A program made the position numbers and the translations under genes. The notes below the pieces were generated by a model, which worked only from the letters and a program-made list of their open reading frames with translations, was not told the origin of the DNA and ran no database searches. Below, piece after piece: positions 19,829 to 35,329 of a stretch of 39,257 bases of DNA (positions are counted from its first letter, which is position 1; every line of letters begins with the position of its first letter). The stretch comes from an uncultured Caulobacterales bacterium (GTDB taxonomy: Bacteria > Pseudomonadota > Alphaproteobacteria > Caulobacterales > Maricaulaceae), in the NCBI GenBank assembly GCA_937965735.1, contig CALCKU010000099.1, positions 1-39,257 of the forward strand. Reading direction: 5' to 3'.

Positions 19829-20298
19829 AAAATAAATTCAAATATATAGTCAAGTTAATCGACCCCAAAATGATTCTAGAAAATCTTGGCGGCGGCGTTA
19901 GTTTTACGCCAAAGCACATAAATGGTGATAAAGACAAATCACTCTCAAAAGCAGAACTTATTGCTCACGATCGTCAACGTGTCGGGTTTTATGATCTGGA
20001 TTTCAACACGCCATATGACCGAAAAACAGTCTTTAGATTCAAGATCATAAATGATGATGACGATACGAAGTGGGAGTTCAGAGATCCGCCGTTTACCGTT
20101 AACGATATGTCTGCTGTTACCCGCTGTAAACGCAATAAAAAGAACAAAAGAAAAGCTGTATTAGTGGTTAAAGGGCATGGTTCGCATAGCGACACTCAAG
20201 AACTAAAATATACACTACACTACCAAGAAAAGGGCAATCCGAAAAACACATTCGATCACGACCCTGTTATTAGAAATGGAACAATCCCCCCAAGTTAA
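19825..20298 (+). CDS. Hypothetical protein coupled to the TIR gene
   Basis: 157-aa charged, soluble-looking protein with no signal peptide or TM. I do not recognise the family. It is beta-rich by eye (VFRFKIINDDDDTKWEFRDP; then AVLVVKGHGSHSD and ELKYTLHYQEKG), resembling a single beta-sandwich domain with a basic loop RCKRNKKNKRKA near residue 100. Its ATG overlaps the TIR stop codon (ATGA), so the two proteins are probably made in a fixed ratio and may interact. The operon position is the only functional clue. Confidence 0.75.
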   Translation: MKNKFKYIVKLIDPKMILENLGGGVSFTPKHINGDKDKSLSKAELIAHDRQRVGFYDLDFNTPYDRKTVFRFKIINDDDDTKWEFRDPPFTVNDMSAVTRCKRNKKNKRKAVLVVKGHGSHSDTQELKYTLHYQEKGNPKNTFDHDPVIRNGTIPPS

Positions 20299-20434
20299 GC
20301 GAACATGTCAATGCGTCCAACGCTTGTGGGACTGCACGTCGGATCTACACTTTTAGTGAGGCTCGCATTAAAGGTTTTGGAGCCCAGTATAATTGCGCCT
20401 GAAGCCAAATCTGCTGTCGCTATTGAATAGAAAT

Positions 20435-21961
20435 ATGACCTCACTCACAGACAATCTTAAAGTATATGAGAGCGCAATCTTTGCGCTCTCAAAAGAACCT
20501 GACATTTTATTGCATAAACATACAGCCGTTTTGGCCCTTGCAAGAGCGGGGTCTCTCGACTTTGCTTTATCAGAATATATGCGTTTGGGTTTAAACCGTG
20601 TACGCCACCACGAGGATATCATGTCCTTACACGGGCGACTTTATAAAGATTTATACCTATCTCACCAAGGGAAAAAGGCCATAGAACTGGCCCGCCTATC
20701 GGCAGAAAAATACGAAAACGCATATAAGGATTCGGGTGGTTTTTATTCAGGTATAAATGCAGCCAGCATGGCTTTGCTCGGCGGTGTTCCCTGTGAAATG
20801 GTTGAAATGCGCGCCCGCCGCCTCCTAAAGGCTTTACCGGTCATAGAAGATGTTGACCGCGAAGTTTACTTTATTGAGGCAAGTCGCGCTGAAGCCTATT
20901 TTTTACTAGGCGAGATGGACAAAGCCTATGCCAGCCTAAAAAACGCTATTAATTTTGATCCCTTGAATTTTACGGCCCATGCCTCAACCCTAAAACAACT
21001 GGCCATGATTACGAAGGCCCGCAATATAGACGTTAAATGGCTGTCTGAGTTTAGCCCGCCGCGAGCCATACATTTTGCAGGACACATTTTTGGACGCGAG
21101 GGTGAGGTTGAAGAGGTTCCAGTCCTATCTGAGGACACGATAAATCATATAGCCCAACGTGTGACAGAGCTTATTCAAGTCAATGATATTGGTTTCGGTT
21201 TCGGCGCCCTTGCCGCAGGGTCTGATATTGTGATCGCAGAATGTTTACTCGAAGAAGGCGGAGAACTCCACGTTGTCTTGCCAGTTGACAGAGCGCGGTT
21301 TTCAGCCGCCTCGATTAAACCCTATGGTGCCTCTTGGCAAAAACGGTTTGAATCATGTTTAGAAAACGCTAGCTCTATTACCGAATGGGATGGCCTCAAG
21401 CAGTGGCCAGATCATATGTTGCAAGATCGGGCGAGCTTAATGGCTATGGGCGGGGCTATTCGCCATTCGGAAGCCTTGGCGGTTAACGCGGGTCAGCTGG
21501 TTATTTGGGACAAGAAAAAAGGCAAACACGGTACAGCCTATGACGCGCAACTATGGCAAGAAAGCGAGCGGCCACAATATATTCTACCTTATACTTGGAT
21601 TAGAAACGCTCAATCACACGGGGCTCAAGCTTCCAAGTACAAATACCAAACGCTTTTAACGCGCCCCGGCATGGATGAACCCTTGGAATTCGACACTTTA
21701 ATTGACGGGATAAAGGCAGCTCTGGATTTCCGTCAAGAAACACCACGTATTATGCAGGCGCTTTCTCTGAGACTTCAGGGCGATCCAATTGCAGAACCGC
21801 CAACGTCCATTAATCTATTTGCAGAATTACCGGGAACAATTTGCGTTAATGAACTCGCGGCAAATTATATTTCCCTTCATCATAACCGCGACTTCTCCGT
21901 AAGTTTTATGGGACTCAGCCAACAAAACTTACGCGTCTTTGCCCTACAAGAGCGGGGTTAG
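20435..21961 (+). CDS. TPR (TRAFs-binding/DUF4071-like) protein with SLOG-like nucleotide-sensing domain
   Basis: 508-aa soluble protein. Residues about 5-200 are helical repeats resembling the TRAFs-binding/DUF4071 region (LLHKHTAVLALARAGSLDFA; then SRAEAYFLLGEMDKAYASLK). Residues about 210-365 look like a SLOG (DprA/LOG-type Rossmann) domain: HFAGHIFGRE, then GFGFGALAAGSDIVIAECLL, GELHVVLPVDRARFSAASIK and LAVNAGQLVIWD. SLOG domains bind nucleotides such as the cyclic ADP-ribose made by TIR proteins in Thoeris. The C-terminal 140 residues are unassigned. I chose ATG 20435; a TTG at 20393 with a better-placed GGAG would add 14 residues. The gap after the 157-aa gene is 136 nt, so an internal promoter cannot be excluded. 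Confidence 0.75.
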   Translation: MTSLTDNLKVYESAIFALSKEPDILLHKHTAVLALARAGSLDFALSEYMRLGLNRVRHHEDIMSLHGRLYKDLYLSHQGKKAIELARLSAEKYENAYKDSGGFYSGINAASMALLGGVPCEMVEMRARRLLKALPVIEDVDREVYFIEASRAEAYFLLGEMDKAYASLKNAINFDPLNFTAHASTLKQLAMITKARNIDVKWLSEFSPPRAIHFAGHIFGREGEVEEVPVLSEDTINHIAQRVTELIQVNDIGFGFGALAAGSDIVIAECLLEEGGELHVVLPVDRARFSAASIKPYGASWQKRFESCLENASSITEWDGLKQWPDHMLQDRASLMAMGGAIRHSEALAVNAGQLVIWDKKKGKHGTAYDAQLWQESERPQYILPYTWIRNAQSHGAQASKYKYQTLLTRPGMDEPLEFDTLIDGIKAALDFRQETPRIMQALSLRLQGDPIAEPPTSINLFAELPGTICVNELAANYISLHHNRDFSVSFMGLSQQNLRVFALQERG

Positions 21962-21962
21962 T

Positions 21963-22697
21963 ATGGACGAGGCAGACGCTAAAATTGTGAAAAAAGCGTT
22001 TGAAACGCTTGAGTTTGAAACGCTTGAGCTTAAAATACGAGGGTTTGAGACGCGCGGGTATGAAACGGCCATTATATTGCCCAATGCGGTTAAAGCGCTG
22101 GCGATTAATAAAACGTATGCCGTTAACAATATCATCCATCATCAAGATGAAATTTTTCAACATATTGGCTTTATTCAGTCGGGGCGGGCCTTTGCACTCA
22201 CCGTAGACATTGACGGGAATGAAACTTGGGTTAGCGAATTTACGGCGGGTCAGTTTATGGGCTGTCATTCGCTCTTTGATCCACGCCCTTCACCTTATCA
22301 GATCATTGCCAAAACCACTTTACGATGCCTCTTATTTAACACCCAAAATTTCTTGAGCCTTATGAATGAGTATGAAGCGCTCAATAACATGGTTGTCGCA
22401 GATCTGGCCCGGCAAGTTGACAATCTAACCCGCGCCCAAATCAATACATATCGGCTCTCCATGCGTGGTCAGATTATTTCAGAACTCGCGCGCATTGCCC
22501 GCCCTGTCGGCAAAGATCCCAACACTTTTATCATCAGACCCAGACCCATATTCTCCGAACTCGCCCAACGCTTGGGCACGAGCCGAGAAACCGTCTCTAG
22601 AACAGTCAGTAGTTTAGTCAAAAAAGACGTTTTAGTACGAACAACTGGCGCCCTTATCATACCTAATTATAAAGCCTTAACCCACCAAATCGTGTGA
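21963..22697 (+). CDS. Crp/Fnr-family transcriptional regulator
   Basis: 244-aa protein with an N-terminal cyclic-nucleotide-binding-like beta barrel (about 35-150) and a C-terminal Crp-type HTH (about 180-238; FSELAQRLGTSRETVSRTVS). No Fnr-type N-terminal Cys cluster is visible, so it is unlikely to carry an Fe-S cluster. The first 25 residues contain a repeat (FETLEFETLEL), encoded by a short tandem duplication near 22000-22030. ATG 21963 begins 1 nt after the upstream stop, with AGCGGGG as a possible ribosome-binding site, so it is coupled to the SLOG-like gene and probably senses or controls the same pathway. Confidence 0.88.
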   Translation: MDEADAKIVKKAFETLEFETLELKIRGFETRGYETAIILPNAVKALAINKTYAVNNIIHHQDEIFQHIGFIQSGRAFALTVDIDGNETWVSEFTAGQFMGCHSLFDPRPSPYQIIAKTTLRCLLFNTQNFLSLMNEYEALNNMVVADLARQVDNLTRAQINTYRLSMRGQIISELARIARPVGKDPNTFIIRPRPIFSELAQRLGTSRETVSRTVSSLVKKDVLVRTTGALIIPNYKALTHQIV

Positions 22698-22757: not shown

Positions 22758-23549
22758 TTACGCACGCATAGGCCGTTTGACGCGTTCGGGATTTGAAAAC
22801 CTTAGGCTTTCTATCATGGGGCATTGTGTTCCCGAATCTTGGATGAGGCGGAGTAGACTATTGAGGCGGCTCATATTTGGGCCGTCATCCGCTTTTGGTC
22901 GAGCGGTTTGCCTATCACCTGTCTCTATCGGCAAAAACCTTTCAGAAGTCACTGAAACAAGGTCTTCAAAATTGGCACCCGTCGTTTCACAAATACGGCG
23001 CATTTCGGCCTCTAATGTTTGACGCGCTTGACTATGGCTGACTTTCCAAAAAGGAATTAACTCAGCTGTTGATAAATCGACATAATCGACCCCTTCACGG
23101 CTTTCTGGAAGCATGGCTTCCAAGCAAGTGCGCGTGCATTTATCACTTATACCGATCACACCATAAGTCGTCAGTGCTACATCCGATGTGTCTTGCGCTT
23201 GAAACGCTAAACCAAAATCAACACCGATAGTCTTGCCAGAAACACGCTCTAAAATAGGCTTAATCAGATCATTTAGCGACCCTGGCTGTGGTATATAAGA
23301 CAGCAAAATCACTCTAAACCCACGACTTCGTTTTAAAGCCGTTCCAATATTATGTGCAGCCTGCATTAGAGCGCTATGATCTGGCCGCTGAGACAGCGTT
23401 TCTGGCAGTGGAATATGCGCAATTAGAACCGTCGATTTTATCACAAGGCTCTGCAAATTATTAGCAAACTGCACATAAGGCGTACTGGCATTAAAAACAG
23501 CTTTCATCGCTTTGGCTTGAGCAATATGAGGTTGTGTATTCTGTGTCAT
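22758..23549 (-). CDS. Degenerate NDP-sugar dehydrogenase-like protein (core fragment, catalytic residues missing)
   Basis: 263-aa protein that aligns by eye with the middle of UDP-glucose/GDP-mannose dehydrogenases. PQPGSLNDLIKPILERVSGK, then IGVDFGLAF, matches the end of the N-terminal NAD domain; STAELIPFWKVSHSQA, then MRRICETTGANFEDLVSV, matches the central helical domain. The N-terminal GxGxxG Rossmann start, the active-site Cys segment and the C-terminal domain are absent, and the conserved Lys of AExxK is Pro (AELIP). The frame is intact, so it is a reduced paralog rather than a fresh frameshift. It is last in the minus-strand polysaccharide unit, 84 nt after the GT4 gene. A regulatory or structural role is possible; no catalysis expected. 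Confidence 0.6.
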   Translation of the reverse strand: MTQNTQPHIAQAKAMKAVFNASTPYVQFANNLQSLVIKSTVLIAHIPLPETLSQRPDHSALMQAAHNIGTALKRSRGFRVILLSYIPQPGSLNDLIKPILERVSGKTIGVDFGLAFQAQDTSDVALTTYGVIGISDKCTRTCLEAMLPESREGVDYVDLSTAELIPFWKVSHSQARQTLEAEMRRICETTGANFEDLVSVTSERFLPIETGDRQTARPKADDGPNMSRLNSLLRLIQDSGTQCPMIESLRFSNPERVKRPMRA

Positions 23550-23633: not shown

Positions 23634-24944
23634 TCAGAGCGAAAGGCACTCCGCGTCACTGTCTTCGGTGCGCAATCGTAAAAGACGTCCCGCTTTCAAC
23701 TTTTGCAAAAGCCGTATATGGATCGCCATTACGGTTTGCAAAGTGACACTCTGTGAAACTGCGAGATTTTCATAAGCGATATTTTGCGCCTTTAATGGGG
23801 TCTCTAACCCTTCTGAAATTGCGCGAATAAGGTCATCTTGATCTAGCGGTGTAAAGTGAAAGCCCGATAGGCCCTCACGCTCTGTTACATCTATAAAATC
23901 ACCGAGTAATGGATAGGCCGCAGGCGTACCGTAAATCGCGGCTTGATGTAAAACGCCTGAACTGCCTGTCGTCGAGTCGTAATCAAATATAGCGAGTTTC
24001 GCAGAGGTGAAGAAATCTTCGACATCATCCTCGGCAACATAACCATGAAATTGTATATTCGGATCTGATGCATGTTGGGCTTCGAGACTGGCAAGATAGC
24101 CTTTCTGGGCAGGATGATCTGTACCGCCAATAACCAGCTCTATTGGCGCATGGTTTTGCCTACGGTTGAGCACTTGTACAGCATAGATCGTGCGCTCTAG
24201 TTTTTTATAAGTCCCAAATTTCCCCATTGTAATGACCCGGTTTGGACGATCTTCCAAGCTGGGCAAAGGGGTTTGACTCTCCCGCTCAAACGTTCCGTGT
24301 GGTACCATGAAGACATTTTTACTTTTATATTTGGATTTTAAAATATCAGCAAAACTGTCGAGCGTGACAGTCATATAACCACATTTCAACATCAACTTAG
24401 TGATATGCTCACCCGCAAGCTGTACCAGTTTCTGACGTGCCTTATTGCCGCCAATATTGGTTTTTGATAAATCAACGGCATCAATTAAATTATGCATGAT
24501 AACGCCGCTCGCAATGCCTTTCTTTTGCGAAAGCATCGGCGTCAAAAGGCCAAGAGCCGCAGGGATTTCTTTATCGCCAAAAGAGGCTGTTTGCAGATTA
24601 TAGATGACACGATCGACACCTGTTGCCTTTAAAGCATTTAGGATATTCAAAGCACTCACCCATGAATTAAACGTCCAAACGCGCCTAACCTCGACCTTTG
24701 GGCCTAGGTCCAATTCGACGATTGGTCCTTTGGCTCTGTCCGCCAAGACGATAATTTTCTTAACGTCACTGCGTAAGATAAGGGCTTTGACCATATGCAA
24801 GCCATATTCATTCAAAGATCCGGTGGCGGGTGGAAAGGCCGAAACAATGGCTAATGTATCGCCGCTGGGAGGGGCCGCATTGATAGGTGTTTTAGAGGCT
24901 TTCATTGAAGGCGCTGCTGTCAGAGGGAAGGTTTCAAGAGTCAT
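23634..24944 (-). CDS. Glycosyltransferase, GT-B fold (family 4-like)
   Basis: 436-aa cytosolic glycosyltransferase. The N-terminal half opens with TLAIVSAFPPATGSLNEYGL, an acceptor-domain glycine-rich turn. The C-terminal half holds the donor domain: RVITMGKFGTYKKLERTIYA, then NIQFHGYVAEDDVEDFFTSA, and a modified EX7E region around FDYDSTTGSSGVLHQAAIYG, in which the first Glu of the family is replaced by Asp/Ser-rich sequence. Substrates unknown. ATG 24944 follows the glycosidase-like gene by 11 nt, with AAAGG about 8 nt upstream. It belongs to the minus-strand polysaccharide unit and should add sugars on the cytosolic side of the membrane. Confidence 0.85.
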   Translation of the reverse strand: MTLETFPLTAAPSMKASKTPINAAPPSGDTLAIVSAFPPATGSLNEYGLHMVKALILRSDVKKIIVLADRAKGPIVELDLGPKVEVRRVWTFNSWVSALNILNALKATGVDRVIYNLQTASFGDKEIPAALGLLTPMLSQKKGIASGVIMHNLIDAVDLSKTNIGGNKARQKLVQLAGEHITKLMLKCGYMTVTLDSFADILKSKYKSKNVFMVPHGTFERESQTPLPSLEDRPNRVITMGKFGTYKKLERTIYAVQVLNRRQNHAPIELVIGGTDHPAQKGYLASLEAQHASDPNIQFHGYVAEDDVEDFFTSAKLAIFDYDSTTGSSGVLHQAAIYGTPAAYPLLGDFIDVTEREGLSGFHFTPLDQDDLIRAISEGLETPLKAQNIAYENLAVSQSVTLQTVMAIHIRLLQKLKAGRLLRLRTEDSDAECLSL

Positions 24945-24955
24945 AGAAAGGACCT

Positions 24956-26725
24956 TTATGGTTTGAGTGAATGTGGGTTTGAAGACATGTGGCTTGAGGA
25001 CTTTATGTCAGAAAAATCTGCGTCCGCAGTTTGAGCCTGTTTTGTAGTCATCGCAGTCATTGAAGACGGAAACGGTGTGTCGGGAGAAAACAACCCAAAC
25101 GACACTGTTGACGCCTTTAGGGTTTCTTTTGATTTTTTATTTTTGAGGGTCTTTAGAGAATATGTTGACGACGTAGCATTGGCATAATTGACAAAAACAT
25201 CTACGGCTGGACGCGGTGCTCCGTCTAAATCAAAGAGACCATAATGGGCTTGTTGTTTTTTACGCCAAGGGCGCCATCCGACAACATCAGAACCAACATG
25301 ATCGAAGTCAAAAAGTGTCCAAAGAAATATACCATCAATCAGGTCTGACTGCGTCAATTGTGTAGTCAAACGTTTGGCCTGTTTTACCTCTCTTAGTCCG
25401 ATAAACGGTACGGGCGTCCAAACCGTTGAACCGAGTTCTGTGATCCAAATCGGACGATTTGGGTAAGCGTCACGCACATTTTGTGTCCGCTCAACAAAAC
25501 CACGAACTGGTTCATAATCATGGTAAGAAATTACATCTAAATCTTGGCCATATTTTATAGCGGCCTCTGACGTTGAAAACCCAATCGTCAACGGGATATT
25601 TGGAAATTCACGCCGAACACTTTGCACCATGACTGAAATCCATCCCATGATGAGGCCTTCCCCGTGAAGCGGCACATCAAGGTTTATTTGGTTTTTCAGA
25701 TCAAGCGCAAGAAGGGCAGGATGGTCTTGGATAAGCGGTAGAATATCCATGAGGTACGCGACATCAGAATCCCAATTTTCAAGACGATAATCAGGCCGCA
25801 AATCAAAGACTGTCGGTATAACTTTTAAACCAGCGTCTTGAGCCATATCCATAAACTCAACTAAACGAGTTTTGGCTTGGGCTTCCGTTTCCATATCTGT
25901 AAAAATCGAATGGGTAAGAAAAATACGCAGGCTATTTCCACCTAAGCTCCGAATAAGGGCCAAATCTTTTTTAATCGTCTCTTTTGGAAACTCAGGCCAA
26001 AAATCGCGCCAGCTTGATTTCGCTGGATAGTAATTGATACCTGCAAATTTTTGTAAGGGCACTTTAGCGACACGTTTAGTTGTCATAGGTTTGCTCTCTA
26101 AAACATCAATCGTGCGTAAAGACCAACCGTCTCGGCGTTTGGCAAATCGTAAGTTCCGAACTTCCATACGGTTCTGGGCAATTCTAAACTGAGGGGTGTC
26201 ATTCTTGTTTTTTGCGGTGTCAGTTTCTGGATCTGCGGTTAAATCAACGCGGTGGCTACGCTCTTCAATATTGACGATGCGTAAATCCCCGTTCACATGA
26301 TTTGGCGTCAAGACCCGGTTCAATCGCAACGTAATCGAACAGGTTCCGATTTTAAGTCGGCATTTTGAATAGGCATCCAGAATACTTGTGATTCCCATCA
26401 GCGCTTGTTCTTCGAGAATATTATTCCCGCCCCAAGACTTTTTCCCTTGTTCAGAAGCCTGTAAAATCCTCGACATTAAGATCATATCTGTATGCGATAG
26501 GGGACGACCATCACTGGGCGGGTTTTCCTGCGGCAACCAGCTATGTGGGATCGGGTCATCCTTTAAAACTAAATGATCTTGTAAAAAATCGTAGGTTTGT
26601 GCGGGCTTAGACAGCGCCTTGATAAAGAGGGCCGCAATAAAGACCAAAAGCACGATCAACAGAACACCAATCAATGTACGGCGAAGACCTGATATGTTGA
26701 GATTAATAGTCAAGTTACGCCCCAA
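24956..26725 (-). CDS. Membrane-anchored glycoside hydrolase-like protein (GH5/clan A-type barrel)
   Basis: 589-aa protein. An N-terminal TM (about 14-38) anchors it, then a 180-residue non-catalytic region, then a TIM-barrel glycosidase-like domain from about residue 227 (FAGINYYPAKSSWRDFWPEF; then LGGNSLRIFL) to about 515. IWITELGS holds the expected nucleophile Glu430 and SYHDYEP the usual His. At the acid/base position, where relatives have DLKNE, this protein has DLKNQ (Gln346; codon CAA), so hydrolysis may be lost or altered. It overlaps the preceding secreted-protein gene by 11 nt. In a polysaccharide locus a role in trimming, release or binding of the periplasmic chain is likely. Confidence 0.8.
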   Translation of the reverse strand: MGRNLTINLNISGLRRTLIGVLLIVLLVFIAALFIKALSKPAQTYDFLQDHLVLKDDPIPHSWLPQENPPSDGRPLSHTDMILMSRILQASEQGKKSWGGNNILEEQALMGITSILDAYSKCRLKIGTCSITLRLNRVLTPNHVNGDLRIVNIEERSHRVDLTADPETDTAKNKNDTPQFRIAQNRMEVRNLRFAKRRDGWSLRTIDVLESKPMTTKRVAKVPLQKFAGINYYPAKSSWRDFWPEFPKETIKKDLALIRSLGGNSLRIFLTHSIFTDMETEAQAKTRLVEFMDMAQDAGLKVIPTVFDLRPDYRLENWDSDVAYLMDILPLIQDHPALLALDLKNQINLDVPLHGEGLIMGWISVMVQSVRREFPNIPLTIGFSTSEAAIKYGQDLDVISYHDYEPVRGFVERTQNVRDAYPNRPIWITELGSTVWTPVPFIGLREVKQAKRLTTQLTQSDLIDGIFLWTLFDFDHVGSDVVGWRPWRKKQQAHYGLFDLDGAPRPAVDVFVNYANATSSTYSLKTLKNKKSKETLKASTVSFGLFSPDTPFPSSMTAMTTKQAQTADADFSDIKSSSHMSSNPHSLKP

Positions 26726-27473
26726 ATTTCAAACTTGACGCGCCTAAGCGGGATTTAATCGGTGCACACGCTTGCACAGGGCGAGGTAATTCTTGCTTAG
26801 CCCCTTTGAATGTAAGTGTGAGCGTATCAATTCCAAAGACATAGCGTCGACATAGCAAAGTCCAACGCGCGCGCCCTTTTATGATCGGTCGGCTTTCAAT
26901 CCCTACATCTCCGTTTAAACTTTTAAACGAAAGCGTTATGATAGAGCCGTCTTCGGGTGTGTTACCGAATATATCTTTTATATGATCCGTTTCAATCACC
27001 AACCGATCAAAGACAGGGTCATAAACGACCTGAGATGGAATAGCCCCTACATCGCCCGAGGTTACAAAGACAGACACAGCTTTGGATACCAGCCTATCGG
27101 TTTTGGCCGTAAAAATTTGATCGCCAGAGATCTCACCCGCAGGAATAAGAAACCGGGCAAGCCCGCGTGTCGTTGTAGCCGTACGGGTTTTTTCAACCCC
27201 TGCTCCCGCATGAATGAGCGTAACCTCTAATCCATTTCTAAAACTCAAACCGACGCCGCTCCGCACCTCGACATCGACAAAAATAGTGCCCTTAGGTTCA
27301 ACCGTTTCAGGCCCCGCGTAAACCGTTATGGAGCCAGCACGGTTATCCATTAACCGTCCCAAACTATTGGCAGGCGCGACTTGCGCCGAAAGCTTAGGCG
27401 CAAAACATATAGCCAAACCCATAACGCCCAAAAGGGTCATCATCTGTATTTTTGATTTATATAAAATTCTCAT
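26715..27473 (-). CDS. Secreted protein of unknown function, first gene of the polysaccharide unit
   Basis: 252-aa protein with a signal peptide: basic start MRILYKSK, hydrophobic MMTLLGVMGLAICFA, and likely cleavage after PKLSA (near residue 30). The mature part is beta-rich and looks like two Ig/FN3-like sandwich domains (SITVYAGPETVEPKGTIFVD; then DGSIITLSFKSLNGDVGIES). No catalytic motif and no lipobox were seen. It starts 28 nt downstream of the predicted sigma-54 transcription start and overlaps the glycosidase gene by 11 nt. Its place at the head of the operon suggests a periplasmic partner of the glycosidase-like protein or of chain export. Confidence 0.75.
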   Translation of the reverse strand: MRILYKSKIQMMTLLGVMGLAICFAPKLSAQVAPANSLGRLMDNRAGSITVYAGPETVEPKGTIFVDVEVRSGVGLSFRNGLEVTLIHAGAGVEKTRTATTTRGLARFLIPAGEISGDQIFTAKTDRLVSKAVSVFVTSGDVGAIPSQVVYDPVFDRLVIETDHIKDIFGNTPEDGSIITLSFKSLNGDVGIESRPIIKGRARWTLLCRRYVFGIDTLTLTFKGAKQELPRPVQACAPIKSRLGASSLKFGA

Positions 27474-27511
27474 TAAGGGCGAAACTCCAGCAATTAACTC
27501 GCTTTCAAAGG

Positions 27512-27526
27512 TGCAAAGCCTGTGCC
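27512..27526 (-). promoter_or_regulatory. Sigma-54 (RpoN) promoter for the minus-strand polysaccharide unit
   Basis: Read on the minus strand: GGCAC, five bases (AGGCT), TTGCA. This matches all ten core positions of the consensus GGCAC-N5-TTGCW, including GG and GC exactly 10 bp apart. Transcription should begin about 12 nt past the GC, near 27501, leaving a leader of about 28 nt before ATG 27473. Confidence 0.75.
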
Positions 27527-27557
27527 TTAAAAACAGCCCTGATTTTCACCGCTTTGA

Positions 27558-27592
27558 TTGCAAATTGCAGAAGTGCTTTTTGCGAAATGCAA
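27558..27592. promoter_or_regulatory. Paired LuxO-type activator sites
   Basis: TTGCA-AAT-TGCAG (27558-27570) and TTGCG-AAA-TGCAA (27580-27592) each match the LuxO site TTGCA-WWW-TGCAA at 12 of 13 positions. Their centres (27564, 27586) are 22 bp apart, two helical turns. A half site TTGCA lies at 27606-27610. They sit 30-120 bp upstream of both predicted sigma-54 promoters, as expected for an upstream activating sequence. Confidence 0.65.
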
Positions 27593-27642
27593 AGTAATTC
27601 GCCATTTGCAACGTTAAACAGGTAAAAAACGCGACAATTAAG

Positions 27643-27658
27643 CGGCCTAAATATTGCC
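27643..27658 (+). promoter_or_regulatory. Possible sigma-54 promoter for the plus-strand polysaccharide unit
   Basis: CGGCCTAAATATTGCC has GG (27644-27645) and GC (27656-27657) exactly 10 bp apart and a full TTGC at -12. The -24 element GGCCT differs from GGCAC at two positions, so this match is weaker than the one facing left. The start of transcription would be near 27669, which favours ATG 27688 as the start codon. Confidence 0.45.
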
Positions 27659-27687
27659 AATGAAGGTGTATGGAATTGGAGATAGAT

Positions 27688-28971
27688 ATGCCTAAATTGC
27701 AAAAAATGACGACTAAAAACATTCAGTCAAATATTGATGAAATCAGATTAAAAGAACAAAAGCGGGCTATGCCTGATCGCGCCGCACGCCTTCAGATCGT
27801 CGAGCCGAAACACACAGCAGGCAGCGCAAATACAACACATTTAGGCAGCGAGCGCCGAAGCGCTACAACTTTAGCGCAACCCGTTACAAGCATTATTATA
27901 CCCTGTTACAACGAAGCGGCGCGGCTTGATGTTAACAGTTTCATTGAATTTGCATTGCAGGAAAAACATGTAAAACTTGTCTTCATTGATGATGGTTCCA
28001 AAGACACAACCATTCAGGTCTTAACCAATATTTTAAAAGCCGTTCCAGACCGCGTAGACGTTTTAATAATGAAAAAGAACCAAGGCAAAGCCGAAGCGGT
28101 GCGCCATGGCCTCAATTTCGCCGCCAAACGCGGTGACGATTTAATTGCATTTTTAGACGCTGATCTCGCAACACCTTTAAATGCCATTTTGGACTTTATT
28201 TCTGTTGCCAAACGCTTACCCGAAATAGATGTCGTCTTTGGTTCGCGTTGCGGCGGCATGGGACGTCGCGTATACCGAAAAATATACAGAAAAGGTATTT
28301 CTTTAATTTGTGCATTTTTAGGACGCCTTGCGACAGGCCTCCCCATACGCGATACACAATGCGGGGCTAAACTCTTTCGTAATAACACAGCCTTTCGTCG
28401 TAGCTTATCTGAGCCTTTCAAAGCGGGTTGGCTCTTTGATATTGAGCTTTTTTTGCGAATTTCAGATCCGAGTCTTTCACAAAAGAAAAGGTTCTTTGAA
28501 TTTCCTGTCATCCAATGGACTGAAATCCCGGGTTCAAAAATTAAAGTCAGAGATATTTTCAAAAGTGGTTTGAAGATGCTGAACCTTATTTTTAACCAAT
28601 GGAAAATACGGCGGCGCTTCCAACGCCGAACGGATAATACCCAATTTGGTGCCGTACAAAACCTGGTCTGTGGCACCTATTTAACGTATCCAGATCTCTT
28701 ACGGTTTATTCAAAAAATTGATCCCGAAATTCGAAGAGTGCAATTTGACCTCTCGGCCTTAAAAGGCCTCACGCCTTCATTGATGACCGCCTTCATTGAA
28801 TTATGCGATGGCTTAGACGCGGCGGGTCATAACATTGAAATTCGCCTACCCAATAGCGGGCCTATCACCGAAACAGCTGAAAGAAGCGGCTTGTCTGCGC
28901 TGTATGATTGTCGGCGCGTTCAAAAACAAACGCCATGTTTCAATAACTCTACAATAGGCCCTGCAAAATGA
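27688..28971 (+). CDS. Family 2 glycosyltransferase fused to a C-terminal STAS-like domain
   Basis: 427-aa protein. After a 60-residue basic tail comes a dolichyl-phosphate-mannose-synthase-like GT2 domain (about 65-310): TSIIIPCYNEAARL, VFIDDGSKDTT, the metal-binding AFLDADLATP (D157 and D159), and DTQCGAKLFR with AGWLFDIELFLR. The last part (about 340-410) reads as a STAS/anti-sigma-antagonist fold: RRVQFDLSALKGLTPSLMTA, then AAGHNIEIRLPNSGPITETA and GLSALYDC. The usual phospho-Ser context (D-S-x-G) is not conserved. GGAG lies 6 nt before ATG 27688; an ATG at 27670 would leave almost no leader. Its stop overlaps the flippase ATG (ATGA). It may transfer a sugar to a lipid carrier or extend the chain. 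Confidence 0.82.
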   Translation: MPKLQKMTTKNIQSNIDEIRLKEQKRAMPDRAARLQIVEPKHTAGSANTTHLGSERRSATTLAQPVTSIIIPCYNEAARLDVNSFIEFALQEKHVKLVFIDDGSKDTTIQVLTNILKAVPDRVDVLIMKKNQGKAEAVRHGLNFAAKRGDDLIAFLDADLATPLNAILDFISVAKRLPEIDVVFGSRCGGMGRRVYRKIYRKGISLICAFLGRLATGLPIRDTQCGAKLFRNNTAFRRSLSEPFKAGWLFDIELFLRISDPSLSQKKRFFEFPVIQWTEIPGSKIKVRDIFKSGLKMLNLIFNQWKIRRRFQRRTDNTQFGAVQNLVCGTYLTYPDLLRFIQKIDPEIRRVQFDLSALKGLTPSLMTAFIELCDGLDAAGHNIEIRLPNSGPITETAERSGLSALYDCRRVQKQTPCFNNSTIGPAK

Positions 28972-30581
28972 GCCCGCGCACACAAAAGGTAAAACCTAAA
29001 ATCCGTATGCAAAATAAAATGCGGCCCGCATTGTTTTTGTTTGTGTCTGCCAATATTGCCAATGCCGCAAACCTTCTCTTTAACATGATATTTGCCCGTC
29101 TAATGGGGCCAGAGGCATTTTCAGACTTGACGTTTTTACTGACTCTCAAGCTCGGGATTTTATGCGTTCTTTCTGCCTTTCAATTGGCGCTTTCCCAATA
29201 CACAGCTAAAGCTTGGTTTGGTAAGAACAAAGACACAAGAAAATCACAAATTGAAACGTTTGCGGCCCTTATAACCCTAAAAAGCCTATGGTTTTCAGTG
29301 CCGCTTATGCTGATTGCCTTTTCTTTGGCAGAAGGTTTTGCGCGCGCATTTCAGTTTCAAGACTTAAAAGCGCTTTTAACATTGATGATAATTCTTCCCG
29401 TTCTCTTTCCCATGATCGTCTATCGCGGCCTTGCGCAAGGGCGAATTGATTTGCCACGGATCATCGGATCCGTTCAGGGTGAGTGGGCCGTTCGCTTACT
29501 GGGCGGATTGATTTTATGGACATTAGGCCTCGGTCTAATGGGCATTTCTATAGCGGTCGTTTTGTCTATTCTAACAGGTTGCCTCTTATCCATGCGCCGC
29601 AATGACGTCAAATCTTTGGCCTCTACAGCGCGTTTAAAAACAATAAAACCTTATTCCTGTACAGGCGCGAAGCCTGTTGCCTCGCCCCCCGTCAAAGCGC
29701 CCAATATCTTTAAAGCGACAACCCCGTTCCTTGCCTTGCAATTTGCCCAAGTCCTGATTTTGGACGGTGATATTATTCTCGCCAAAGCCAATATGAATGC
29801 AGAACTGGCAGGCTATATTGCCGGGCTTATGCTTCTTCAACGTATTTTCTTTTTTGCCTTTTTATCTTTTTCGTCCCTTTTACTCCCCGTCATTTCAGCC
29901 AAGATTGAAAAATCAACGGGCACGCCTTCACACATAAAAAACGAAAATAAGGTAGACCGCCCATTAAAGACAGAAAAACACAGGTCACAACACGCGATGC
30001 TAGAGGGAAATCCATCAAAACAATCCAGTAAGGTTTATGACAATGTCCGAAGAGGCCGCTCAGACCTTATGATGATGCTTGGCGGTGTGATGGCAATTTC
30101 TGTACCTGCTCTCTTTGCCTTATATTTGATACCCGCTTTAGGCGTGACCCTTATTCTTGGCCCTGAATTCGCATCGGTTCAACCGCTCGCCGTAATTTCA
30201 GGGGCGACAGGGGCGCTTTTTACACTCACGCATTTATGTACCGTTTACTGGCTTGCTAATGGTCAAACACGCATGGCCTATGTCCTCTTAGTCTTAGCCG
30301 TAGTTCAAGTTATGTTATTAGGGATGAGCGCCGCCACGGATCCAGACTTTACGGTCACAGAATTTGCGACCCTTAAACTTTCATTACAAAGTCTCATATG
30401 TGCGGCATTGTTGTTTTATACATTCATAGCCACCACAAAAAGGCGGACGCCCTCAAAATCCTTTCTCCAAAGACTCTTTTCACAAAGATCTTTGCGTTTT
30501 AGAAAAGCGAGTCTAAAAAACACCCAAGCGCTTGTTTCAAACGCAGGCCCAAAACGTCCGAATATTTGTGACACCACTTAG
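28968..30581 (+). CDS. Wzx/MATE-like polysaccharide flippase
   Basis: 537-aa polytopic membrane protein of the MVF/oligosaccharide-flippase type. The N-terminus FVSANIANAANLLFNMIFAR, then LMGPEAFSDLTFLLTLKLGI, is the classical opening of Wzx-like proteins, and about 12 hydrophobic segments follow. A hydrophilic loop of about 45 residues (about 325-370, rich in K, E, S, R) interrupts the middle, probably facing the cytosol. It should move lipid-linked saccharide made by the locus across the inner membrane. Its ATG overlaps the GT2-STAS stop, and its 3' end nearly touches the start of the next gene, so the three are one operon. Confidence 0.85.
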   Translation: MSPRTQKVKPKIRMQNKMRPALFLFVSANIANAANLLFNMIFARLMGPEAFSDLTFLLTLKLGILCVLSAFQLALSQYTAKAWFGKNKDTRKSQIETFAALITLKSLWFSVPLMLIAFSLAEGFARAFQFQDLKALLTLMIILPVLFPMIVYRGLAQGRIDLPRIIGSVQGEWAVRLLGGLILWTLGLGLMGISIAVVLSILTGCLLSMRRNDVKSLASTARLKTIKPYSCTGAKPVASPPVKAPNIFKATTPFLALQFAQVLILDGDIILAKANMNAELAGYIAGLMLLQRIFFFAFLSFSSLLLPVISAKIEKSTGTPSHIKNENKVDRPLKTEKHRSQHAMLEGNPSKQSSKVYDNVRRGRSDLMMMLGGVMAISVPALFALYLIPALGVTLILGPEFASVQPLAVISGATGALFTLTHLCTVYWLANGQTRMAYVLLVLAVVQVMLLGMSAATDPDFTVTEFATLKLSLQSLICAALLFYTFIATTKRRTPSKSFLQRLFSQRSLRFRKASLKNTQALVSNAGPKRPNICDTT

Positions 30582-30591
30582 AAAAGGACAT

Positions 30592-33500
30592 TTGTCAGAC
30601 ATTACAATGCGCCCAAGACTTTGGGTGTATCTTGCAATCGTCTTAGGGCTTGTCTTTCATGCAGCCCTTCTGCCCTACACAGTGGGGCAGACTTACGACT
30701 CTTATATCCATATGTTCTTTGGCGATCATTATAACCGCTCATGGTTTGATCCGTGGGAACCCCGTTGGTATACGGGTTTCACAGTGACTGCCTATCCGCC
30801 CGGAAGTCATCAAATTCTGGGACTCTTGATCCATATTATGGAGATGAAAAACGCCTTTATTGTCGCGCAACTCTTAGCCGTCGTGCTGTTGATTATCGGT
30901 GTTTTTCGCTTTAGTCGCCTTTGGGTTAGCGCCCAAGCCAGTGCGAATGCCGCCTTGATTGTCGCGTTTTCAACGAGCATTTCTGAGACCCTACACATTT
31001 TTGGGCAATTGCCGACAACGCTCTCCATTGCACTGTTTTTAAACGCTACACCGCATATATCGGCCTGGATTAAGGATGGTAACAAACGCGCTATCCTCCC
31101 CGCTTTAATTTTCACATCAGCCGCAACCTCCGTTCATCACGTCACCCCGATTTTTGGTACGATATTCTTTGTGGCGCCCTTGGGCGTTGCGGCATGGCTT
31201 GCCGAAATGCGTGAAAAACCACTCCCTGAATTCGCCTTAAAGGCACATCAAAATTCAGAAAAACACAAATTGACAAAGCAAGATATTTGGCAGTGGCTTC
31301 AATGGGCTGCGCCTGCGCCCATGCGCGGCATAGCAATCGGTATGGCGATGTTATGCTTGATTATAGTGGTCGTGTTTCCCTACTGGCATTGGTCAATTAC
31401 AGACCCCATCACCCAAGTGAGTATTCCCCATGGCAGTCGAGAAAACTTTCTCAAACGCCCAAATTTAGGGATTATGTTTTTTGTTATCCCGTGGGGCTTT
31501 CTCATTCTGGCCTTGCCCTTTGTCGTTTACAAAACAGCAACGACAACTCTGTGGCCGCTTGGCCTGTCTGTGCTCGTAACATTTATCCTCGGGACAGGCG
31601 GAACAACCCCGATTGCAGAGCTGATCTTAGGGCCAGCATTTTGGATTTTAACGCTTGATCGATTTACGTTTTGGTCGAGCCTTTTAATCCTGCCCTTTGC
31701 CGGTCTGGCCGCAGAGAGTTTACGAGTCGGGCGGGCAAATCAATGGCTCACACAAGCCTTTGGCATACGGATGACACGCCTAAGCCTTGGTTTGTTTGTT
31801 AGCCTGTTTGCACTGGCCAGTGTATTTACCGCCCTCATTCCAACCTTTCGCCCAACCCAACCTGACTTTGTTGACCCTTCGCCCATTGCAACATTTATGG
31901 ACGAAGATGAGCATTTTAAATGGCGCTATTTGACACTCGGCTTTGGTGATCAATTTGCCTATCATAGTGCTAAAATCAACGCTGAATCTGTGGACGGAAA
32001 TTATCATTCGGCCCGTCGACTCCCAGCCCTTATGCAATATTCTGTAGAGCGTTTGGAAAATTCAAAATATTCGGGCGTTCCTGGCCTCGCTTCACTCGGG
32101 CAATTTTTAGTCAATGCAGAAAAGTTCAATCTAAAATTTGTTTTTTCAAATGATGAATTTTATGATCCGCTTCTGCACTATACAGGATGGAATCCAGTCA
32201 CCCGTCTACGAAACAATGTCGTGGTATGGGAAAAAAATGACATATCGCCTTTGCCACCTATTCGCGCGCGCCGAACCTTGCCACGGTACCAAGTCTTGAT
32301 GTGGGGTACGATTCCAATTTCAGCTCTCGCACTCGCCGCAATTTTATTAACATATCTTGCCTTGAGAGGGCGGCTCCTAGGGGATGAACCCGTTAAAGGG
32401 GCGGTAGACGTTACACGTCCCGAACCGTGTGTGCCCCGCTATAGGGTTTGGGTATTGCGCGGTGCCTGTGTTATTTTCTGTCTTGGCGGCGTTTTATCCG
32501 CTGTAAAAGTTTTTTCGCTCAAAAACATTCCACAAACGCCTGAAGCCGTTATTCAAACCTATTACGGCGATATTGATTTTAGAAAAATGCGTGACGCGTA
32601 TAACAAGCTTGCCCCGCGCAAAGACTTACCCTTTGAGGCGTTTATCAAAGAACAAAGGCTCACGGGTGGCCTGCTGCCCTCATATGGTAAATTAACAGAC
32701 GTTTACATAGGACAAGCCCTCAAGACAGAGGAACCGATAGGCCGTAATCAGCGTGAAAAAACCATCACACTCCCGATAACTTTACGGTATTTGACCGCAT
32801 TGGGCGTCAAAAAAGTAACCCGTCTTACAACCCTCATCAAAGTCCCCAATGGCGAATGGAAAATTTTACACAAAAGCAACACAAAGTCGCTTTTGGACAC
32901 AGTAAGCTTGAGGGGGCAAGCGTTTGAATTCATCGATTTAAAAACCCTAAGAAGCACTTTGTCGGGTAGCCCCAATCTGGAAGTCATTGCCCGCCCTATA
33001 TTCAAGGTTTCAGATGCCAGACTCGTTTATAATGACCAACGGTTTTACGTTGTCGGCGAAATCGAAAACACGTCTGTCTTTCCAGCTTGCGGGAAAATTA
33101 CGTCGACGGCATTGGATGAAAATGCAGACCCTATGCTTGTCCAAGCTTCAGGGCGTATTGGCGCACATAGGCTTTTGCCCGGCGAGCGTTCACCTTTTCG
33201 AATTGACTTTGAAGGGTTTATGAAAATTTCCGACTCTTACTTGGGTGACGCTTTTGATCCCGACCAGTTCAGCTTGCCTCAATTTTCAGCCCCCCCACAG
33301 TCTGCGAGTTTGGATGTATGGGGCACGGTTTGCGCCACCCCGCGTTATAAATCTATAAAAATTGATCGTAGTCAGGTTGTCGAGATCGGAGACCGTCAAG
33401 TCCTAAAACTCGCAGTAACCAATACTGGGACAAAAATCGTGAGCACGCTTCAATTCAAAATGGGTATTTATAACCCTCAAGGCGATTTGGTCTGGGTCGA

Positions 33501-33726
33501 TGCAGATTATTTGCAAACGAACCTTCTGCCTGGGGAGAAAAGAGAATTAAGCCTGCCCCTCAACGCACAAGCCTTTACCATGCAATATGGGGAGGTCTAT
33601 CCCATTACGGTCAACGGAATTGCCAAGCCAAAAGAGCGGTTTGAAATGCGGTCTGAGTTACCAATGAAAGACGGCTACACATTGCGTTTAAATTATGATG
33701 CAATGGTTTATGAGCCCCTACGCTGA
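30592..33726 (+). CDS. Large GT-C-like membrane glycosyltransferase with periplasmic C-terminal domains
   Basis: 1044-aa protein. The first 400 residues have about 10-12 TM segments. The first periplasmic loop has acidic and aromatic residues in a GT-C pattern (TYDSYIHMFFGDHY near 34-47; then PRWYTGF and AYPPGSHQ at about 66-74), reminiscent of polyprenyl-phosphate-sugar transferases of the PMT/STT3 type. Two TMs near 585 and 635 follow, then a soluble half with an NTF2-like stretch (TPEAVIQTYYGDIDFRKMRD) and two FxLYD-like beta domains (VYNDQRFYVVGEIENTSVFP; VVEIGDRQVLKLAVTNTGTK). I chose TTG 30592, preceded by AAAAGGA; ATG 30607 is the alternative. It could be the polymerase or a decorating enzyme of the polysaccharide. 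Confidence 0.7.
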   Translation: MSDITMRPRLWVYLAIVLGLVFHAALLPYTVGQTYDSYIHMFFGDHYNRSWFDPWEPRWYTGFTVTAYPPGSHQILGLLIHIMEMKNAFIVAQLLAVVLLIIGVFRFSRLWVSAQASANAALIVAFSTSISETLHIFGQLPTTLSIALFLNATPHISAWIKDGNKRAILPALIFTSAATSVHHVTPIFGTIFFVAPLGVAAWLAEMREKPLPEFALKAHQNSEKHKLTKQDIWQWLQWAAPAPMRGIAIGMAMLCLIIVVVFPYWHWSITDPITQVSIPHGSRENFLKRPNLGIMFFVIPWGFLILALPFVVYKTATTTLWPLGLSVLVTFILGTGGTTPIAELILGPAFWILTLDRFTFWSSLLILPFAGLAAESLRVGRANQWLTQAFGIRMTRLSLGLFVSLFALASVFTALIPTFRPTQPDFVDPSPIATFMDEDEHFKWRYLTLGFGDQFAYHSAKINAESVDGNYHSARRLPALMQYSVERLENSKYSGVPGLASLGQFLVNAEKFNLKFVFSNDEFYDPLLHYTGWNPVTRLRNNVVVWEKNDISPLPPIRARRTLPRYQVLMWGTIPISALALAAILLTYLALRGRLLGDEPVKGAVDVTRPEPCVPRYRVWVLRGACVIFCLGGVLSAVKVFSLKNIPQTPEAVIQTYYGDIDFRKMRDAYNKLAPRKDLPFEAFIKEQRLTGGLLPSYGKLTDVYIGQALKTEEPIGRNQREKTITLPITLRYLTALGVKKVTRLTTLIKVPNGEWKILHKSNTKSLLDTVSLRGQAFEFIDLKTLRSTLSGSPNLEVIARPIFKVSDARLVYNDQRFYVVGEIENTSVFPACGKITSTALDENADPMLVQASGRIGAHRLLPGERSPFRIDFEGFMKISDSYLGDAFDPDQFSLPQFSAPPQSASLDVWGTVCATPRYKSIKIDRSQVVEIGDRQVLKLAVTNTGTKIVSTLQFKMGIYNPQGDLVWVDADYLQTNLLPGEKRELSLPLNAQAFTMQYGEVYPITVNGIAKPKERFEMRSELPMKDGYTLRLNYDAMVYEPLR

Positions 33727-33814: not shown

Positions 33815-35329
33815 TTAAGCGACAGACCAGATAGTAGCCTCTCTAGGCTGTTCAAAATCGTCACCCTCCCCTTCATCAGACCAACTCTCACGTTTCCTGT
33901 AAATTGTCGAAGGACTTAACTCTAAAATCTTAGACGCTTTCGGTATACTCCCACCGCACGCAGAGATCGCCGCTTCAATAATTTGCCGCTCTAGCTCGGC
34001 CATAGGGCGGTCAAGATCAATGGTTAAAGGCTTACGGATTGTCGGACGCGCCAGGACACTGGCATCCGGGTCGGACACCGGGCCAATAGAGCGGTAGGGT
34101 TGATATGCGCTTTCGTCACGCTGAGTGCTCTCAATATTGGGAATCACCAGATTATTCGATAAGTCCAACATATCGGCATTGATTTCGGTACCGCTATTCA
34201 TAATCACGGCTTTGCGAATGGTATTTTGGACTTCGCGGATATTTCCAGGCCAGTCATAATTTAGTAATGCTGATTTCGCCGCATCCGTTATATGGTCAAA
34301 GGCTTTACCCTCTTCTTTGGCGTAAACTTGCATAAAATGCTCTGCCAGTAAGATAACATCATCTTCGCGCTCTCTAAGTGGCGGCAAGGTCAAAGACAAC
34401 ACATCTAAACGGTAAAATAAATCTTCACGAAAGCGCTTTTCAGCCACTTCAAGTCGCGGATTTCGATTCGTCGCACAGACAATCCGAACATCCACATCAA
34501 TTAATTTATCACTCCCGACTTTTTTAATTTTACCGGTCTGTAAAAAGCGTAAGAGTTTCGCTTGCAGCCCAATATCCATTTCACAAATTTCGTCTAAGAA
34601 TAGAGTTCCGCCATCAGCGCGAAATGCCGCCCCGTCACGGGCCTCTTGCGCGCCCGTATAAGCCCCTTTAACGTGGCCAAAAATTTCCGACTCCATTAAA
34701 TCCATCGGAATAGCCGCACAGTTAATCGCCACAAAATTTTGCCCTGAACGGCCACTGATTTCATGAATAGATTGCGCGCAAACCTCTTTACCCGTGCCCG
34801 ATTCACCCGTAATAAATACGGGTGCTTTTGAATGTGCGATATTTTCGATCATCGTATAAATCGCCAACATCGGTATTGAATCGCCGACAAACCCTCTTAT
34901 TTTCCGAGGGGCCATATCCTTTTTAAGCACTTTAACCGTTGTCCAAAGATCCGTACGCTCAAGTGCGTTTTTTACGCTCGTAACTAAGCGCTCAGGCGCA
35001 ACCGGTTTTATCAGAAAGTCATAAGCCCCGTTCTGCATGGCCTTTACCGCAGTATTAACCGAGCCGTTTGAAGTCACCACGATAAAGGTCACGGGGATTT
35101 TTCGTTTTTTAACAGCGGTCATAATTTCTAGACCGTTCATGTCGGGCAGTTGCAAATCCAATAAGACAGTGGAGAACTGACCTGTAACAAGCTTATCAAT
35201 GGCCTCTGCGCCAGTTTGCGCAAGATCCGATTCAATACCAGCCTTTTGCATATGCAAAGTATGCATGCGTGATACAGATAATGTATCTTCAACAATCAGT
35301 ACTTTAGATGAGTGGTTACGCCCCGTCAT
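33815..35329 (-). CDS. LuxO/SypG-like sigma-54-dependent response regulator
   Basis: 504-aa NtrC-class regulator. Receiver domain (about 8-120; VLIVEDTLSVSRMHTLHMQ, phospho-acceptor Asp58 in LLDLQLPDMNG). AAA+ domain (about 145-375) with Walker A GESGTGKE, the sigma-54 contact loop GAYTGA and Walker B GGTLFLDEI. Fis-type HTH at the C-terminus (SIPKASKILELSPSTIYRKR). The AAA+ block (FITGESGTGKEVCAQSIHEI; EICEMDIGLQAKLLRFLQTG) is very close to what I recall of Vibrio LuxO. The gene starts 8 nt after the hybrid kinase, so the two are co-transcribed. The LuxO-type sites and sigma-54 promoters at 27.5 kb are its probable targets. Confidence 0.93.
   Translation of the reverse strand: MTGRNHSSKVLIVEDTLSVSRMHTLHMQKAGIESDLAQTGAEAIDKLVTGQFSTVLLDLQLPDMNGLEIMTAVKKRKIPVTFIVVTSNGSVNTAVKAMQNGAYDFLIKPVAPERLVTSVKNALERTDLWTTVKVLKKDMAPRKIRGFVGDSIPMLAIYTMIENIAHSKAPVFITGESGTGKEVCAQSIHEISGRSGQNFVAINCAAIPMDLMESEIFGHVKGAYTGAQEARDGAAFRADGGTLFLDEICEMDIGLQAKLLRFLQTGKIKKVGSDKLIDVDVRIVCATNRNPRLEVAEKRFREDLFYRLDVLSLTLPPLREREDDVILLAEHFMQVYAKEEGKAFDHITDAAKSALLNYDWPGNIREVQNTIRKAVIMNSGTEINADMLDLSNNLVIPNIESTQRDESAYQPYRSIGPVSDPDASVLARPTIRKPLTIDLDRPMAELERQIIEAAISACGGSIPKASKILELSPSTIYRKRESWSDEGEGDDFEQPREATIWSVA

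Follow-up and report, generated by a model that had tools for sequence, protein, structure and literature searches.

Activator sites located between two opposed sigma-54 promoters are known from Escherichia coli, where ZraR acts on zraP-zraSR. In Vibrio fischeri, SypG, a LuxO-related activator of a polysaccharide locus, has sites which overlap the LuxO sites at qrr1 (PMC10162802), and is fed by HnoX-HahK (PMC12369376). In the case of Vibrio cholerae, the LuxO sites obtained by ChIP-seq include ttgcaaaatgcaa and ttgcaatttgcaa (PMC10328515).

The locus described here lies in the window, i.e. the whole stretch of 39,257 nucleotides that was analysed from an uncultured Caulobacterales bacterium, and consists of two back-to-back polysaccharide operons separated by a gap of 196 bases. 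Direct reading of the sequence located two opposed sigma-54 elements around common LuxO-type sites, and it is highly probable that positions 27512-27658 constitute a shared enhancer for the two opposed promoters, through which a LuxO-like activator would switch both polysaccharide units together. The elements are the following:

27512-27527, minus strand: sigma-54 -24/-12 element of the minus unit, AGGCACAGGCTTTGCA, predicted start at about 27501
27558-27570: site C, extra dyad, TTGCAAATTGCAG (TTGCA-AAT-TGCAG), 1 mismatch, 22 bp from site A
27580-27592: site A, LuxO-type dyad, TTGCGAAATGCAA (TTGCG-AAA-TGCAA), 1 mismatch to TTGCA-N3-TGCAA
27599-27611: site B, weaker dyad, TCGCCATTTGCAA, 2 mismatches, 19 bp from site A
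27643-27658, plus strand: sigma-54-like -24/-12 element of the plus unit, CGGCCTAAATATTGCC, predicted start at about 27669

The minus-strand element (GGCAC-AGGCT-TTGCA, read from 27526 to 27512) agrees with the consensus at 10 of 10 core positions, is one of only two sites in a scan of the window with at most one mismatch to TGGCACN5TTGCW, and stands 39 nt ahead of the minus start codon at 27473. On the plus strand, the GG-N10-GC (27644-27657) is weak by consensus, with 4 mismatches in the 11 specified positions of the same pattern, and its assignment is based on conservation. Together with the RpoN encoded elsewhere in the genome (contig C33), the presence of GG-N10-GC in a TGGCAC-N5-TTGCW context marks two predicted sigma-54 promoters, the element being strong on the minus side and weak but conserved on the plus side. 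An earlier note, made from the letters of this DNA, had proposed both elements, the first at 27512-27526 with a complete core about 40 nt before the minus gene and the second as a weaker one at 27644-27657, and both proposals hold, the second being poor by consensus and conserved in all the homologous loci considered below. The end of the region which it had set at 27687 fits the plus start codon, most likely the ATG at 27688, about 30 nt past the putative promoter, as in the relatives. Site A is midway between the promoters, at about 85 and 83 bp from the respective predicted starts, and in the window genome sites C, A and B form a nearly symmetric three-site array with spacings of 22 and 19 bp, so that by coordinate arithmetic they fall at about -63, -84 and -105 as viewed from either promoter. 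No conserved IHF site was revealed in the divergent region by a scan across the loci.

The two units, which are transcribed away from this region, are made up as follows:

23634-24944, minus strand: GT4 glycosyltransferase (PF00534), about 60% identical in relatives
24956-26725, minus strand: membrane-anchored glycoside hydrolase-like protein (GH5-like)
26715-27473, minus strand: secreted protein of 252 aa, first gene of the minus unit, no Pfam match
27688-28971, plus strand: GT2 glycosyltransferase (PF00535), first gene of the plus unit
28968-30581, plus strand: multi-pass membrane protein without family match, resembling a flippase by appearance only
30532-33726, plus strand: membrane protein of 1,064 aa, PTPS_related type (5 of 9 family members match PF10131)

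An initial scan of the genome contigs with the 252-aa secreted protein gave no match; in relatives, a homologue with 25-38% identity is found at the corresponding position. A truncated nucleotide-sugar dehydrogenase-like open reading frame (22758-23549), its Pfam similarity being sub-threshold only, lies at the end of the minus unit, and a CRP-like regulator is encoded at 21939-22697. Near the polysaccharide locus, a protein which is TIR-like by appearance (18092-19828) and a TPR-S domain protein (PF20308, 20393-21961) are also encoded, this pair (18092-21961) being possibly defence-related.

Past the plus unit, two regulatory genes are found:

33815-35329, minus strand: LuxO-like sigma-54 activator with receiver (D58), AAA+ and Fis-type HTH bearing the helix SPSTIYRK
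35338-37584, minus strand: hybrid kinase PAS-HisKA-HATPase-REC-Hpt with H214, D545 and H686 invariant

The best NCBIfam match of the regulator is Vibrio LuxO (NF041946), aligned over the full length with 536 bits against 393 for the next model, a score below the curated cut-off of this equivalog (800 bits). The protein has the complete LuxO-type domain set, i.e. receiver, AAA+, Fis-type HTH and LuxO-type recognition helix, and its isolated HTH also scores best against the LuxO model, which bears out the LuxO-like reading frame that had been recognized at these coordinates beforehand. The helix SPSTIYRK recurs in a LuxO-like protein from Aeromonas caviae and in almost every regulator of the module (one has SPSTVYRK). 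The activator carries GAYTGA in place of GAFTGA, unlike its aligned module relatives. As for the kinase, its HisKA, HATPase, REC and Hpt domains are united in a single polypeptide and the His, Asp and His are all conserved, which is the composition of a SypF-type phosphorelay kinase.

The conservation of the control region was followed by tracing the plus-unit glycosyltransferase gene in relatives, the PTPS-related protein being used as query for named loci. This gave 20 loci with the divergent region, the window included, all in Robiginitomaculaceae (genomes or MAGs of Litorimonas, Hellea, Algimonas and Robiginitomaculum), and every one of them has kept both sigma-54 elements as well as sites A and B. 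The distance from the minus -12 GCAA to the plus -24 GG is 130 bp in 18 loci and 131 bp in two (the window and L072); TGCAA and TGCC in the minus element, and GG and TTGC in the plus element, are invariant. Likewise, all 20 loci have CGG(C/T)(C/T)-N5-TTGCG or a near variant of it at 130-131 bp from the minus element, and the plus start codon follows at about 26-33 nt; in all of them site A is offset by 66-67 bp from the minus -12 element, and the TGCRA half-site of site B by 94-95 bp from the minus element. The spacing from site A to site B is 20 bp in most relatives as against 19 bp in the window.

Mean pairwise identity, calculated among 13 representative loci, was 0.82 for the minus element, 0.85 for site A, 0.65 for site B and 0.73 for the plus element, compared with 0.44 for the remaining, non-site columns, i.e. 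the neutral-looking stretches, which have diverged. Since the minus -12 TGCAA resembles a half-site, part of the conservation of this element could reflect binding of the regulator. Site C stands at 0.42, at background level, which leaves A and B as the conserved pair. The earlier note had taken the dyads at 27558 and 27580 as the pair and had called for conservation to be scanned in related genomes: their positions, their single mismatches and the 22 bp between them are correct, and the GG/GC elements and site A are conserved at fixed spacing in the 20 loci, but the dyad at 27558 is not, its place in the pair (27580-27592 with 27599-27611) being taken by site B. In several relatives a TTGCAAA half-dyad occurs 14-15 bp from site A, although the position of site C itself is not kept.

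The letters of site A also connect it with Vibrio. In fact, site A of L079 is TTGCAAAATGCAA, letter-identical to the V. cholerae LuxO ChIP-seq site at qrr1, and site A of L078 and L107 is TTGCAAATTGCAA, identical to the qrr2/4 site read on the other strand; both ChIP-seq sequences quoted above recur, on one or other strand, as site A of several relatives. With a conserved dyad (TTGCAWWWTGCAA) upstream of -24/-12 elements at enhancer distance, the region can be described as a putative sigma-54 enhancer of the LuxO/SypG type.

The whole module, i.e. minus and plus units of three genes each, the LuxO-like regulator and the hybrid kinase, is present in Robiginitomaculaceae (Litorimonas cladophorae, where L071 has the locus entire, Hellea, Algimonas, Robiginitomaculum and further MAGs), the regulator or the kinase being missing only at contig ends or where the genes are divided among contigs; a few of the MAGs that have the module are labelled as other groups, e.g. 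Rhizobiaceae (L069) and Bacteroidales (L086). One genome, G060, has two divergent copies of the whole module (contigs C9 and C12), each with its own regulator and control region. Given the near-exact layout in 20 of 20 loci, with regulator and phosphorelay kinase alongside, both operons are very probably switched together.

Among the 137 genomes of the family, 15 have both the regulator and the spaced cis element, one the element alone (G139, whose contig ends soon past the locus), and two the regulator alone (G050, and G138, where a contig end leaves a fragment of it), the other 119 having neither, counting as regulator a close orthologue of the linked one and assigning hits by hand; this co-occurrence is partly linkage, since both lie in one locus. 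Furthermore, composites of dyad and sigma-54 element occur at 12.2 per 100 kb where the regulator is present, as against 0.20 in the homologous loci that lack it (Rhodobacteraceae, Anaerolineales, Saprospiraceae and others). Similar control regions and associated genes were found elsewhere in the relatives:

Downstream of the PTPS-related gene, in L069, L070-L074, L077-L083, L086, L091, L107 and L109: third control region, before a TolC gene
L188:12480-13772 (minus), L187:8451-9797 (plus) and L146:10406-11755 (minus): second sigma-54 gene, with AID, CBD and DBD domains
L149:3935-7094 and L079:18151-21263: operon of H-NOX, H-NOX kinase and receiver-kinase adjoining the hybrid kinase

The TolC promoter, recorded in 16 relatives, has tandem dyads mostly 21 bp apart and a sigma-54 element (TGG(T/C)-type -24/-12) 95-96 bp from the first dyad, and MBOAT and an AlgJ-like protein are sometimes also encoded there. 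In every TolC locus scanned, one fixed position is occupied by an IHF-like block (WATCARN4TTR, 0-1 mismatch), which is conserved at this promoter only. In the window genome TolC is unlinked, on contig C137, where degenerate tandem sites, the IHF-like block and TGGCCCAAGCCTTGCT are retained. In G050, the orthologous regulator occurs without the PTPS-type module and adjoins an alginate-like operon (PilZ/HlyD protein, GT2, porin), the promoter region of which has a perfect dyad, TTGCAATATGCAA, and a sigma-54-like element. The WecG/Wzx-type polysaccharide clusters of G021, G065 and G163 encode more distant LuxO-like regulators (45-46%); here the kinase operon is preceded by dyads and sigma-54 elements, as is a second rpoN gene in G021 and G163. 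A second sigma-54 gene is found together with a LuxO-like regulator, a hybrid kinase and WecG/Wzx-type genes in L188, L187 and L146, and in the first two its own promoter has LuxO-type dyads and a -24/-12 element. The H-NOX operon is likewise preceded by a LuxO-type dyad and sigma-54 element (GGGCACATGCTTTGCA in L149, CGGCATCGGCTTTGCA in L079); an H-NOX input to the regulator was looked for in the window genome and was not found. On a plasmid of Paroceanicella profunda (L067:4934-5022), the genes leading into a LuxO-like two-component system, itself unlinked to polysaccharide genes, are preceded by a sigma-54-like element and by the tandem dyads TTGCATTCTGCGA and TTGCATTTTGCAA.

In the mechanism proposed, the hybrid kinase would hand phosphate to the LuxO-like activator by way of the receiver and Hpt domain which it contains, and the activator, once phosphorylated, would bind dyads A and B (plus C in the window genome), midway between the promoters. 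The AAA+ ring of the activator would then remodel sigma-54 polymerase at either promoter, in dependence on RpoN, and the secreted protein, glycoside hydrolase and GT4 of the minus unit would thereby be co-expressed with the GT2, membrane protein and PTPS-related membrane protein of the plus unit, while the TolC-type outer-membrane gene, on another contig in the window genome, would be under a matching promoter. That one regulator switches both units had already been suggested in the earlier note, and the suggestion gains support, at the level of sequence, from the 20 loci, the co-occurrence in 15 of 137 genomes, the DNA-binding domain closest to LuxO and the RpoN encoded in the genome.

The alternative that survives best, which we nevertheless consider improbable, is that a different activator or repressor binds the TTGCA dyads, the LuxO-like protein being a linked bystander or regulating something else. 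The genome does encode other sigma-54 activators and the CRP-like regulator, but the two other activators that could be read have different recognition helices (GRSTLYRK and ERSALHRK), the dyads and promoters track the LuxO-like protein across unrelated polysaccharide clusters (that of G050, and those with the distant regulators of G021, G065 and G163), and they are nearly absent from loci without it. Slightly less probable again is that sigma-54 serves the minus promoter only, with another promoter driving the plus unit and the plus GG-N10-GC being incidental; the poor match of this element to the consensus in the window would fit such a situation, whereas its recurrence at 130-131 bp in 20 of 20 loci, at the same distance range before the plus start codon, would not. 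As regards number, lone dyads are unremarkable, with 87 at up to one mismatch in the 2.2 Mb genome (42 for a reversed-pattern control) and, at up to two mismatches, 30 in the window where 32 were expected, so that what counts is the combination, which is rare, and its conservation. A chance resemblance, arising in intergenic DNA rich in AT and compatible with these counts, was rejected as very nearly incredible given the fixed spacing in every locus and the 60-fold difference from the regulator-free control set.

With a shared, LuxO-type enhancer as the preferred reading, the system closest in function is SypF-SypG, and the one closest in sequence is LuxO. In V. fischeri, a hybrid kinase with Hpt hands phosphate to a LuxO-related activator, which turns on several sigma-54 promoters of a polysaccharide locus (PMC10162802, PMC12369376), and a like set of components is present here. 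Unlike syp, the host is alphaproteobacterial, the polysaccharide genes differ as far as annotated (GT4, GH5-like, GT2, PTPS-related), the sites are LuxO's symmetric TTGCA-N3-TGCAA instead of the SypG sites TTCTCANNNTGMDWN, and one central enhancer is common to two opposed promoters at fixed spacing. With the LuxU-LuxO/qrr system of Vibrio the locus shares the activator subfamily by best model, a near-identical dyad, sigma-54 promoters and paired sites (PMC10162802, PMC10328515). Nevertheless, the conserved targets found here are polysaccharide operons and not qrr small RNAs, Hpt is fused to the kinase, the score is below the LuxO equivalog cut-off and the likeness carries no quorum-sensing link. 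The H-NOX operon next to the regulator in two relatives resembles HnoX-HahK/SypG and H-NOX-HqsK/LuxU-LuxO (PMC12369376, PMC6759604). Compared with zraP-zraSR and ZraR, the activator subfamily, the site and the genes are different. In short, the locus would work like the SypF-SypG and LuxO systems, but its regulator is outside the LuxO equivalog by score. The literature searched gave no instance of alphaproteobacterial polysaccharide genes under LuxO-type control, a negative which counts only weakly as evidence of absence; the newness suggested in the earlier note may stand for the alphaproteobacterial case, with the qualifier that SypG of V. fischeri already controls such a locus in a gammaproteobacterium (PMC10162802).

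The finding would extend LuxO/SypG-type regulation, known from Vibrionaceae, to Alphaproteobacteria of genera reported from algal surfaces, with a ready list of targets. The divergent promoter, with its fixed geometry, offers a clean system for studying how one enhancer-bound activator serves two sigma-54 promoters. Moreover, an otherwise uncharacterised polysaccharide locus gains a predicted switch, together with a candidate nitric-oxide input in some relatives. In a wider sense, LuxO-type phosphorelay activators with TTGCA-N3-TGCAA enhancers might represent a general alphaproteobacterial control cassette for polysaccharide clusters of at least three types (PTPS-type, alginate-like and WecG/Wzx-type), where the WecG/Wzx-type clusters have a second sigma-54 of their own under a like enhancer, and might sometimes be linked to H-NOX nitric-oxide sensing, a generalization which we put forward tentatively and with more doubt than conviction. 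If it were true, the quorum-sensing use made by Vibrio at the qrr genes would be derived from an older surface-polysaccharide switch.
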